53,358 bases of DNA from Acidimicrobiia bacterium (GTDB lineage Bacteria; Actinomycetota; Acidimicrobiia; IMCC26256; PALSA-610), in contig JADGOO010000002.1 of NCBI GenBank assembly GCA_017882905.1, forward strand, positions 1 to 53,358. Direction: 5' to 3'. Of this stretch, positions 18,996 through 22,408 are shown one piece after another. The notes below the pieces were generated by a model. The model did not search any database. It had not been told where the DNA came from and was given only the letters and a program-made list of their open reading frames with translations. Positions within the stretch are counted from its first letter, which is position 1. Each line of letters begins with the position of its first letter. A program made the translations under genes and the position numbers.

Positions 18996-20099
18996 ATGCG
19001 CGGGATCGTGTTCATGGGCGACGGCGTCGCCGAGGTCACCAGCGAGCTCGAGATGCGGGGGCCCAAGCCGCATGAGGTCGTCGTCCGCATGGTGAACGCG
19101 GGTGTGTGCCACAGCGACCTGTCGCTGATCAACGGCACGATCCCCTTCCCGGCCCCGTGCGTGATGGGCCACGAAGGCGCGGGCATCATCGAGGAGATCG
19201 GCAGCGCGGTGTCGTCCGTCGCAGTCGGCGATCACGTGGTGATCTCCACCATCGCGAACTGCGGCCGCTGCTCCGCGTGCGCGCGGGGCTTGCCCACGCA
19301 CTGCCGGCAATCGATCGGCAACTTCCGCATGTCGTACACGTACAAGGGCGAGCGCACATCGGCGTTCGCAGCGGCGTCGTGCTTCGCCGACCTCACCGTC
19401 GTCGACGCGATCCAGGCCGTGAAGATCAGCAACGACGTGCCGTTGTCGAGCGCGTGCCTCATCGGCTGCGGCGTGATCACTGGCATGGGCGCCGTGCTCA
19501 ACCGCGCCAAGGTGCGGCCCGGCGAGACCGCCGTCGTGTTCGGCGTAGGCGGCGTGGGGCTCTCGGCGATCCAGGCGTTGCGGCTCTCGGGCGCGGCGCG
19601 CATCATCACCGTCGACACCATCGCCGCCAAAGAAGGCCTCGCCCGCCAGTTCGGCGCCACCGACTTCATCGACGCCACCCAGGTGGAATCGGTGCCGGCC
19701 ACGATCAAGGCGCTGCTGCCCGCGAGTGGCGGTGCCATGTGGAACCCAGGTGGAGTGGACTGGGCGTTCGAGTGCACGGGCGTACCGCGCGTGCTGCACG
19801 ACGCGATCGAGTCACTCGACTGGGGCGGCACGGCCGTTGCGGTGGGCGTGCCGGCCGGCGATGCCCGCCTCGACATCCCGATCATGGGCAACTTCATCTA
19901 CATCGACAAGGGCCTCATCGGCTGTCGGTACGGCACGGCCCGGCCGCATCACGACTTCCCGAAGATCGCCGAGCTGTACCTCGAGGGCAAGGTGCTGCTC
20001 GACGAGCTCGTGAGCGAGGTGCATCCGATGGAGGACTTCCATACCGTCATCGAGCACATGCACACCGGCACTCTCGCCCGAGGCGTCCTCCAGTTCTGA
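18996..20099 (+). CDS. Zn-dependent alcohol dehydrogenase (MDR superfamily)
   Basis: NAGVCHSDLSLINGTIPFPAPCVMGHEGAGIIEEIG; structural-Zn cysteines NCGRCSACARGLPTHC; VFGVGGVGLSAIQALRLSGAARIITVD. Confidence 0.93.
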   Translation: MRGIVFMGDGVAEVTSELEMRGPKPHEVVVRMVNAGVCHSDLSLINGTIPFPAPCVMGHEGAGIIEEIGSAVSSVAVGDHVVISTIANCGRCSACARGLPTHCRQSIGNFRMSYTYKGERTSAFAAASCFADLTVVDAIQAVKISNDVPLSSACLIGCGVITGMGAVLNRAKVRPGETAVVFGVGGVGLSAIQALRLSGAARIITVDTIAAKEGLARQFGATDFIDATQVESVPATIKALLPASGGAMWNPGGVDWAFECTGVPRVLHDAIESLDWGGTAVAVGVPAGDARLDIPIMGNFIYIDKGLIGCRYGTARPHHDFPKIAELYLEGKVLLDELVSEVHPMEDFHTVIEHMHTGTLARGVLQF

Positions 20100-20110
20100 C
20101 CCCCCGACCA

Positions 20111-20160
20111 CGAACCAGCGTTGCGGATACGTCAGGGTGACGTATCCGTCACGCCGGTTG
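20111..20160. repeat. 50-bp direct repeat copy 1, containing a two-stem palindrome (20113-20159)
   Basis: CGAACCAGCGTTGCGGATACGTCAGGGTGACGTATCCGTCACGCCGGTTG; inner stem CGGATACGTCA/TGACGTATCCG, outer stem AACCAGCGT/ACGCCGGTT (one mismatch). Confidence 0.95.
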
Positions 20161-21096
20161 GGCACGATCGAGACGGGCGATGGCGCCGCGGAGCGCGGCG
20201 GCGAGCGCACGGCCACCTTCCTGAAGGTCGGCATGGCGCACGGGAATCATCCAGTAGCCGTACTCAGCCGCCCACGCGCGGCGGTGATCATCCTTGGCCG
20301 TATCCACGACGTCGGTGTGGTGCAGCGTGGAGTCGTACTCGAGCAGGATGTCCCACTCCTCGAGCGCAGCGTCGACGCGCGCGACGAACCGGCCTTGTCG
20401 GTCGCGGATTTCGAACTGCAAGGTCGGTTCCGGAAACCCGTGGCGTCGCAGAGTGTGCAGTAGCAGCGTTTCCATCTCCGACTCCGTCGGGCGCGCATGC
20501 TCGCGTGACCGCTCGAGAGCGGCGCGCAGCTTGCGCACGCCCGGCCGCCCCCGGCGAGCGCGTCGATACAGGTACGCCTCGAGCGACGAGTTCGTCACGA
20601 TTCTCTTGCGGCGCACCGCATAGATCGCGCGCTCGACGTCGTCGATCGTCACCCGTCGCCGGCCGGCGACGTGGAGCACTGCGAGTTCACCGACCACGAC
20701 GGGCAATCCGGCAACAACAGTGAAATCGCTCGGTTGGAGCCCCGTGAACTCGTGCACGTGCAGGCCAGCGTGTTGTGCCCGTTCCCACCTTGGACAGAGG
20801 ATCTCGATCGGGTCCCGGCTCGCGCCGGCGAGGCCGTAGAGCTTCGCGGCGCTGCGATGCGACAGGCCGCTCAGCTCGCCGCCAGCCCACGCTGCAGCGA
20901 GCGCACGGCTCCGCCAGCTGTCGGGCGCGCCCGAAACGCGGAACACCTCGTCGTAGAGCCGTTCAATGACTCCTCGCTCGATCAGCCGGCGACGGACGTC
21001 GTGCGTCCACCCGGCGCGTTCTGCATCGGCGAGCCGAATCAGACCGCAACGCAGCCGCGCCGACGCCAACAGCTCGTGATCTCGCCGCGTTGCCAT
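20149..21096 (-). CDS. AbiEi-like wHTH domain + DUF559 (PD-(D/E)XK/Vsr-like) nuclease-like protein
   Basis: N-term LLASARLRCGLIRLADAERAGWTHDVRRRLIERGVIERLYDEVFRVSG...LSHRSAAKLYGLAG (AbiEi-like); C-term RFVARVDAALEEWDILLEYDSTLHHTDVVDTAKDDHRRAWAAEYGYWMIPV (DUF559-like D...ExD...D..R). Confidence 0.8.
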   Translation of the reverse strand: MATRRDHELLASARLRCGLIRLADAERAGWTHDVRRRLIERGVIERLYDEVFRVSGAPDSWRSRALAAAWAGGELSGLSHRSAAKLYGLAGASRDPIEILCPRWERAQHAGLHVHEFTGLQPSDFTVVAGLPVVVGELAVLHVAGRRRVTIDDVERAIYAVRRKRIVTNSSLEAYLYRRARRGRPGVRKLRAALERSREHARPTESEMETLLLHTLRRHGFPEPTLQFEIRDRQGRFVARVDAALEEWDILLEYDSTLHHTDVVDTAKDDHRRAWAAEYGYWMIPVRHADLQEGGRALAAALRGAIARLDRAQPA

Positions 21097-21121
21097 GCAC
21101 GCCAGCGTGGCAGGAGCGGGC

Positions 21122-21156
21122 GGGCGCGGAACCGGAGCCCATCCGGTTTCGCGCCC
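21122..21156. promoter_or_regulatory. 15-bp-stem inverted repeat upstream of the AbiEi/DUF559 gene; candidate operator or 5' hairpin
   Basis: GGGCGCGGAACCGGA-gccca-TCCGGTTTCGCGCCC; fully paired with one G.U; 26 nt upstream of the minus start at 21096. Confidence 0.6.
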
Positions 21157-21164
21157 ACTCCATC

Positions 21165-21214
21165 CGAACCGGCGTTGCGGATACGTCAGGGTGACGTATC
21201 CGTCACGCCGGTTG
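21165..21214. repeat. 50-bp direct repeat copy 2, containing a two-stem palindrome (21167-21213)
   Basis: CGAACCGGCGTTGCGGATACGTCAGGGTGACGTATCCGTCACGCCGGTTG; 49/50 identical to copy 1; 9-bp outer and 11-bp inner stems, 3-nt loop. Confidence 0.95.
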
Positions 21215-21231: not shown

Positions 21232-22362
21232 TCAGGACTTGGCGAGGGCGGCTTCGCGTTGGCGGGTGGTGCTATGCACCGGGTCCTTGTCGAACTGCGG
21301 GAGCACGTGCTTGCCGAACGTCTCCACCGTCTCGATGGCCACCTCGCGCGACATCGTGGTCGACAGCTGGCCGAACACCAGCTGATCGACACCGGCGTCG
21401 GCGTACTTCTGGCACACGTCGGCGACCTCGTCGGGCGTGCCGAAGCACTGGATGCGCGCCTTGATCATCGCGTCGATCTGCTCGACGCTCGGCTCGGGGA
21501 TCAGGTCGGGCCACACCGGGATGCCGGCCGGGCGCGGGAACGTATCGAGATACTTGAACAGCAAGCTCGTGTGGTAGCTGCCCTGCAACGTGGCCGCGAT
21601 GTCGCGCACGCGCTGGCCGTCTTCGAGGCACAGCATGTTGCTCGTGACCATGATGTTGTTGTTCACGTACTCGCCGACGGGCTCGGCCTTCTCGATCGCC
21701 GTCTTGTACGAGTCGATCAGCGGCTTGAGCGAGTCGACGCTCGCCATCGTGAAGCACAGCACGCCGAGGCCCATCTCGCCCGCCTTCACGAACGTGCTCG
21801 GCGAACCGGCCGCAACCCACATCGGCGGGTGCGGCTTCGTGTAGGTCTTCGGGAGCACGTTGCGCTGCGGCATCGAGAAGAACTTGCCGTCGTGCGGCCC
21901 GTACTCGTCGTCGCGCCACATCTTCTTGAACTCGACGATCACCTCGTCGAACATCTCTCGGGTGATCTCCGGGTCTTCGATGCCGAAGCCGCGCTGCTCC
22001 GTCGACGACGAGCCGCGGCCCATGCCGAACTCGAAGCGACCCAGTGACAGGTGGTCGAGCATCGCGACGCGCTCGGCCACACGCGCCGGCGGGTTGACCG
22101 GCGGCGTGATGTTGAAGATGCCGGAGCCGATGTGGATGCGCTCGGTGGCGGCGGCGAGGTAGCCGAGGAAGACCTCGTTCGCCGACAGGTGCGAGTACTC
22201 GGTGAGGAAGTGGTGCTCGGTGGCCCACGTGTACTTGAAGCCCGACCGATCGGCCGCCTTGGTCCACTCGACCTCGTCGATCATGCGGTGGTGTTCGCGC
22301 AGCGGGTCGCCCGGGCGGTAGCCGGGCAGCAGACAGCCAGAGTTGAAGAGTCCGAATTCCAT
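21232..22362 (-). CDS. LLM class flavin-dependent oxidoreductase
   Basis: MEFGLFNSGCLLPGY...SGFKYTWATEHHFLTEYSHLSANEVFLGYLAAATERIHIGSGIF; RFEFGMGRGSSSTE. Confidence 0.9.
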   Translation of the reverse strand: MEFGLFNSGCLLPGYRPGDPLREHHRMIDEVEWTKAADRSGFKYTWATEHHFLTEYSHLSANEVFLGYLAAATERIHIGSGIFNITPPVNPPARVAERVAMLDHLSLGRFEFGMGRGSSSTEQRGFGIEDPEITREMFDEVIVEFKKMWRDDEYGPHDGKFFSMPQRNVLPKTYTKPHPPMWVAAGSPSTFVKAGEMGLGVLCFTMASVDSLKPLIDSYKTAIEKAEPVGEYVNNNIMVTSNMLCLEDGQRVRDIAATLQGSYHTSLLFKYLDTFPRPAGIPVWPDLIPEPSVEQIDAMIKARIQCFGTPDEVADVCQKYADAGVDQLVFGQLSTTMSREVAIETVETFGKHVLPQFDKDPVHSTTRQREAALAKS

Positions 22363-22408
22363 TCGGAGCACAGTAGCAAGGAAATGGAACACGTTCTAAT
22401 CTTCCGGG

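Follow-up and report, generated by a model that had tools for sequence, protein, structure and literature searches.

A solitary AbiEi/Vsr-type nuclease gene bracketed by lineage-specific palindromes: a candidate selfish element of Actinomycetota

Why does a solitary nuclease-like gene in an Acidimicrobiia genome lie between two nearly identical palindromes? The question is raised by a unit within the 53,358-nucleotide stretch of DNA analysed here (the window), for which a selfish element had been predicted: two-stem palindromes enclosing exactly one gene, whose product would recognise, cut or maintain them. The repeats are real. They are direct, 50 bp long and 49/50 identical (20111–20160 and 21165–21214), and their core, GATACGTCAGGGTGACGTATC, occurs just twice in the window, once in each repeat (0 expected from 100 shuffles). 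Single-stranded folding of the two copies (z = −3.9 and −6.7) agrees with the predicted fold, except that the outer 9-bp stem is perfect in copy 2 only, copy 1 having an A/C mismatch (AACCAGCGT versus ACGCCGGTT). The natural repeat unit is a 47-bp dyad (22 + 3 + 22). Copy 1 (20113–20159) lies 13 bp past the stop codon of a Zn-dependent alcohol dehydrogenase gene (ADH; 18996–20099, plus strand) and copy 2 (21167–21213) lies 18 bp past that of an LLM oxidoreductase gene (21232–22392, minus strand) and 70 bp upstream of the nuclease start codon. The two neighbours, identified from their translations, are convergent and no transposase lies nearby, both as predicted. The nuclease gene (20149–21096, minus strand) is the only one between the repeats, but is not strictly enclosed by them: its stop codon (TGA, 20149–20151) falls inside the right arm of the left palindrome, so that the final codons (..CAA CCG GCG TGA) are palindrome sequence.

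The gene encodes 315 amino acids and belongs to a family that combines an AbiEi-type part with a nuclease of the Vsr/MTES_1575/DUF559 type, in agreement with the predicted AbiEi-type winged helix and DUF559 domain. Residues 5–198 (20503–21084, minus strand), the expected DNA-binding part, are AbiEi-like (PADLOC AbiEi, E = 4.3e-18), and residues from about 200 to 300 (20197–20499, minus strand) form the nuclease part. Among 20 family members, domain matches were to MTES_1575 REase (13/20), AbiEi_4 (11/20) and DUF559 (7/20). The residues that are invariant in the family (D242, E253, H260, R272) and those that are nearly so (E209, Q227, D269) are all present in the window protein. The family profile weakly matches two structures, 3hrl (endonuclease-like) and 3r3p (mobile intron protein; E = 0.003), the latter of which we take to be the homing endonuclease I-Bth0305I. 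Domain and structure-profile searches of the family returned these nuclease and AbiEi matches and no transposase domain, and single-sequence structure prediction of the window protein gave no usable fold (pLDDT 36). MTES_1575 has been assigned to the Vsr type (PMC3710099). A tblastn search for homologs in plasmids and phages gave no match, which leaves spread between cells without an explanation.

The palindrome is not confined to the window. Genome-wide, its core has six sites, five strong and one weaker, and four of these, outside the window, lie between or behind unrelated genes. In a 675-kb sample of the genome the core sites proved to be part of a wider set of 47-bp dyads with common outer arms and differing inner stems. 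Covariance models of the window family (R1) and of many lineages (R2) returned 31 matches at E≤0.1 and 67 at E≤1, respectively, in the window's own genome with both strands counted, which we estimate to represent roughly 40 distinct sites. The search for further copies that the original prediction proposed was thus successful, although the palindrome is not a mark of the nuclease only, since the majority of copies stand alone at a distance from nuclease genes. In a survey of 61 genomes, R2 matches were present in 37 (43 matches in the own genome, both strands counted). The dyads of the own genome fall into three families, namely that of the window nuclease, that of a second paralog (GATGCGTCGCTCACCCG..) and one to which no nuclease could be assigned (..TCGATAGCGC..). 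Members of the third (AACTTGCGTGACTCGATAGCGC..) were seen at L016 (640–686), L174, L175, L177, L180 and L189; they share the outer arm and are possibly served by the window nuclease, or a relic. Rfam returned no family for the palindrome at its cut-off, and the core pattern had no match in viruses. The sole exact core match outside the own genome in GTDB r220 (L048, 6511–6533; Nocardia sp. MAG RYN_116) has unrelated flanks; sharing the core only, it is compatible with chance. Separately, contig C8 of the own genome carries two paired palindromes of the CCTATCAGTGATAGG type that look similar to a TetR operator (L072, 6240–6276).

To what extent palindromes accompany nuclease genes was assessed at 72 homologs from 61 genomes of the class, with control zones taken from the same loci. 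Flanks were scored by counting 47-mer dyads with at least 17/22 pairs, which replaced a simple hairpin score that under-counts brackets. Dyads of this quality were found upstream in 27/68 and downstream in 25/72 cases, against 15/1192 and 14/1196 control zones (about 1.2%; Fisher p<1e-23). With imperfect copies allowed, 34/72 homologs are bracketed on both sides by like 47-bp palindromes, and no bracket was detectable at 30/72, some of these being at the ends of contigs or in divergent clades. The two dyads of a locus are on average alike at 38/47 positions, compared with 18.7 between loci. A second set, drawn evenly across the phylum and independent of the discovery of the pattern, had 14 of 29 loci bracketed (a few of them by weak dyads) versus 26 of 3000 random zone pairs (0.9%). 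The predicted association of palindrome and nuclease is therefore far above background. It is also apparent from the dyads themselves: among 69 sites in four sister genomes, all 4 pairs of palindromes less than 4 kb apart bracket a nuclease (spacing 1009–1017 bp). Dyad-to-dyad spacing is about 1.0 kb in all units, and units are about 1.0–1.05 kb long. Flank orientation is mixed (28 direct, 15 inverted and 2 ties in 45 bracketing pairs). At L036, L044 and L047 a third dyad was observed about 1.3 kb from the unit, perhaps from an adjacent or degenerate unit with which a dyad is shared. At L202/L125 (G021:C5, about 782–791 kb), tandem dyads (TCTCGGGTGTC..) with 61–62 bp spacing lie on both sides of a nuclease homolog.

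The manner in which the palindrome may be read is suggested by its variation. Mismatches between upstream and downstream copies spare two blocks in each half (about positions 6–11 and 18–21) and their mirror images. The strongest period of this profile is 10.5 bp, a power reached by 0 of 5000 permutations in which positions were treated as independent. Such spacing is consistent with a symmetric protein contacting a single face of B-form DNA. Judged by this pattern, a double-stranded dyad read from one face fits better than a cruciform or a single-stranded hairpin.

Comparison of sequences further indicates that each nuclease lineage has its own palindrome. Similarity of palindromes tracks that of the proteins (Mantel r = 0.46, p = 2e-4), and does so in a comparison restricted to pairs across genera (r = 0.37, p = 2e-4). 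Genome G050 encodes five paralogs with five different dyads, and the closest pair of proteins has the closest dyads. Many R2 dyads are found in 17/19 genomes with a close nuclease versus 9/42 of the others (p = 6e-7). Genome G003 (L204, L205; 77% complete) contains at least about 50 R2 palindromes, several identical in score, and no close nuclease was found in it.

We consider it fairly likely, with a probability of about two in three, that the window locus is one copy of a selfish palindrome–nuclease system, REP/RAYT-like or homing-like, in which a restriction-type nuclease takes the place of an HUH enzyme. The autonomous unit would be palindrome–nuclease–palindrome, of about 1.0–1.05 kb, and the solo palindromes near gene ends would be non-autonomous copies or remnants of it. 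Recognition would rest on the AbiEi-type winged-helix part, with which the nuclease, probably dimeric, would contact one face of its cognate 47-bp dyad in double-stranded form, while the Vsr/MTES_1575-type domain would cut at or near the variable centre of the dyad. Repair of the break from another copy would then convert and spread palindromes, with the gene sometimes copied along. Several observations count against this reading: intact palindromes beside the gene would make the element a target of the enzyme that it encodes, 30 of 72 homologs have no detectable bracket, no target-site duplication could be defined, G003 has many palindromes and no close nuclease was found in it, and plasmids and phages yielded no homologs.

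Orthologous sites differ in their occupancy. Joined flanks of the units of one family were searched in 12 genomes and the matched sites were then read. The L023 site holds a full unit in G050 and a single dyad in G041 and is vacant in G055; the site of the G057 and G041 units is empty and free of dyads in G050 and G056; and the L117 site, with a unit in G050, is occupied in G055 and empty in G041 and G057. Hence, these sites have seen both gain and loss of units and solo dyads. At the window locus itself, the ADH and LLM genes of relatives are arranged in a different order or separated by a different gene. The original prediction was that the gene with one palindrome copy may insert into pre-existing palindromes, in which case empty sites would carry a single copy. 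Sites without a unit do exist and one, in G041, carries a single palindrome, but most empty sites have none at all, so that insertion confined to pre-existing palindromes is not supported.

These sites bear on the alternative of a classical homing gene, in which the nuclease cuts solo palindromes, the gene alone is copied in, and solo palindromes arise by recombination of the flanking copies, as solo LTRs do. The solo palindrome at the orthologous site of a full unit is what such a gene would leave, and the weak relation to EDxHD homing endonucleases points the same way. That solo dyad, however, belongs to G041's own family (34/47 identical to L027 and 25/47 to the G050 unit at the site) and is not simply a remnant of a G050-type unit. 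Since, in addition, solo copies far outnumber nuclease genes and most empty sites are palindrome-free, we regard this alternative as unlikely.

A second alternative requires no movement: the palindromes would be operators of an autorepressing AbiEi-type regulator, together with ordinary hairpins at 3′ ends. AbiEi domains are known autoregulators, and the upstream palindrome mostly ends 36–50 bp ahead of the start codon, a position to be expected of an operator. Against this, the copy at the nuclease stop codon is the same palindrome as the upstream one, dozens of solo copies follow the stop codons of unrelated convergent genes, and orthologous sites differ in whether they carry a unit or a solo copy. 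An operator function as the whole explanation thus appears improbable.

The placement of the palindromes could also reflect a domesticated host function, as bidirectional terminators or chromosome marks which the nuclease maintains or homogenises. Solo dyads lie mostly 4–30 bp from stop codons and are strongly biased to convergent gene ends: 10/18 in the own genome and 13/19 in four sister genomes (a set that includes two dyads belonging to units) lie between convergent genes, versus 26 of 291 intergenic regions, with genes called by a simple script. Homogenisation is likewise seen. At two orthologous occupied sites, where the proteins are 66–68% identical, the two flanks are identical at 38–44/47 positions within a species (39 and 40; 44 and 38), whereas the same flank is identical at 24–32/47 between species (30 and 24; 30 and 31). 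The two flanking dyads thus evolve in concert, a pattern that repair of one copy from another would produce and that also counts in favour of the selfish system. Yet the palindromes have neither a T tract nor a terminator match, are lineage-specific and absent from many related genomes, and vary in presence at orthologous sites, which leaves domestication with a rather slim chance. That a palindrome was duplicated by chance around an unrelated solitary gene is practically negligible, since the same architecture recurs at tens of loci across the phylum, even though the own genome has a clear near-identical pair at one nuclease only.

The selfish palindrome–nuclease system therefore remains our preferred reading, and the original idea is largely upheld in bracketing, dispersal, gain and loss, and co-divergence, with its mechanism revised in that the palindrome looks like a double-stranded dyad. 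The same arrangement across the phylum, with a palindrome that differs per enzyme lineage, looks like an undescribed kind of selfish element. Evenly balanced, in our estimate, is the wider proposal of a phylum-wide, previously undescribed class in Actinomycetota, whose AbiEi-winged-helix/Vsr-type nuclease would recognise a lineage-specific 47-bp dyad and spread itself and free dyads by cut and repair, as a non-HUH enzyme for a REP-like repeat. We found no earlier description of a palindrome–nuclease system in open-access PMC text, and one may exist elsewhere. The association connects solitary AbiEi/DUF559-type nucleases, a common and unexplained gene family of which an actinobacterial genome often encodes several paralogs, with a dispersed repeat; it thereby gives the family a testable role and provides a non-HUH parallel to REP/RAYT. 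How palindromic repeats for which no transposase is known come to spread, a question that CGTC REPs also pose, becomes directly testable as well. Should the nuclease cut its own dyad, each lineage would offer a naturally occurring enzyme whose target is long, readable and able to evolve, suited to the study of changes in site specificity.

Several known classes were compared and rejected. A DDE insertion sequence disagrees with the missing transposase domain, the mixed flanks (28 direct versus 15 inverted) and the lack of a visible duplication. An integron attC cassette is not supported, as RYYYAAC/GTTRRRY boxes are missing in most lineages (some window-type copies resemble GTTRRRY), the ends are lineage-specific and an integrase is absent. 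An intrinsic terminator was rejected for want of a T tract at the palindromes. AbiE toxin–antitoxin systems share the AbiEi-type N-terminal part (PADLOC, AbiEi_4); the present protein, in contrast, has no adjacent AbiEii nucleotidyltransferase toxin, its neighbours being ADH and LLM genes, and carries a C-terminal nuclease instead.

CGTC-tagged REPs are 20–40 bp long with an unpaired CGTC and are described as lacking a dedicated transposase, and Actinobacteria are not listed among their hosts (Di Nocera et al. 2013, PMC3733652). Both they and the present repeats are short, CGTC-containing intergenic palindromes downstream of genes. The 47-bp dyad, however, has GCGTC in a long paired arm, mainly in one clade, and differs from the 20–40 bp hairpin with an unpaired CGTC head and CCA-like tail.

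With I-Bth0305I (3r3p) and free-standing homing genes, the system has in common a Vsr-like catalytic domain, the prospect of a long dimer-bound target (the I-Bth0305I family is reported to bind as a dimer to nearly 60 bp; PMC3943268) and a putatively selfish gene whose site is filled in some alleles and vacant in others, here between species. Unlike them, the present gene lies outside introns and has an intact copy of its presumed target on either side, with other copies of that target dispersed.

A close parallel in architecture is REP/RAYT (TnpA-REP, REPtrons). The present system resembles both REP/RAYT and homing genes in its presumed workings without falling fully under either definition. 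REPs prefer gene ends, especially convergent ones (PMC3733652). GTAG-type unpaired heads, a REP feature, were absent from the 45 bracketing pairs, whose ends are AACC, TTTT, TTCT, AGCA etc. The present enzyme is an AbiEi plus Vsr-type nuclease rather than an HUH/Y1 tyrosine transposase, its 47-bp dyad has a 10.5-bp block spacing, and the hosts are Actinomycetota. In both systems, a solitary enzyme gene is flanked by palindromes, short palindromes of the same kind are dispersed near gene ends, and palindrome families are specific to the enzyme (PMC3733652).
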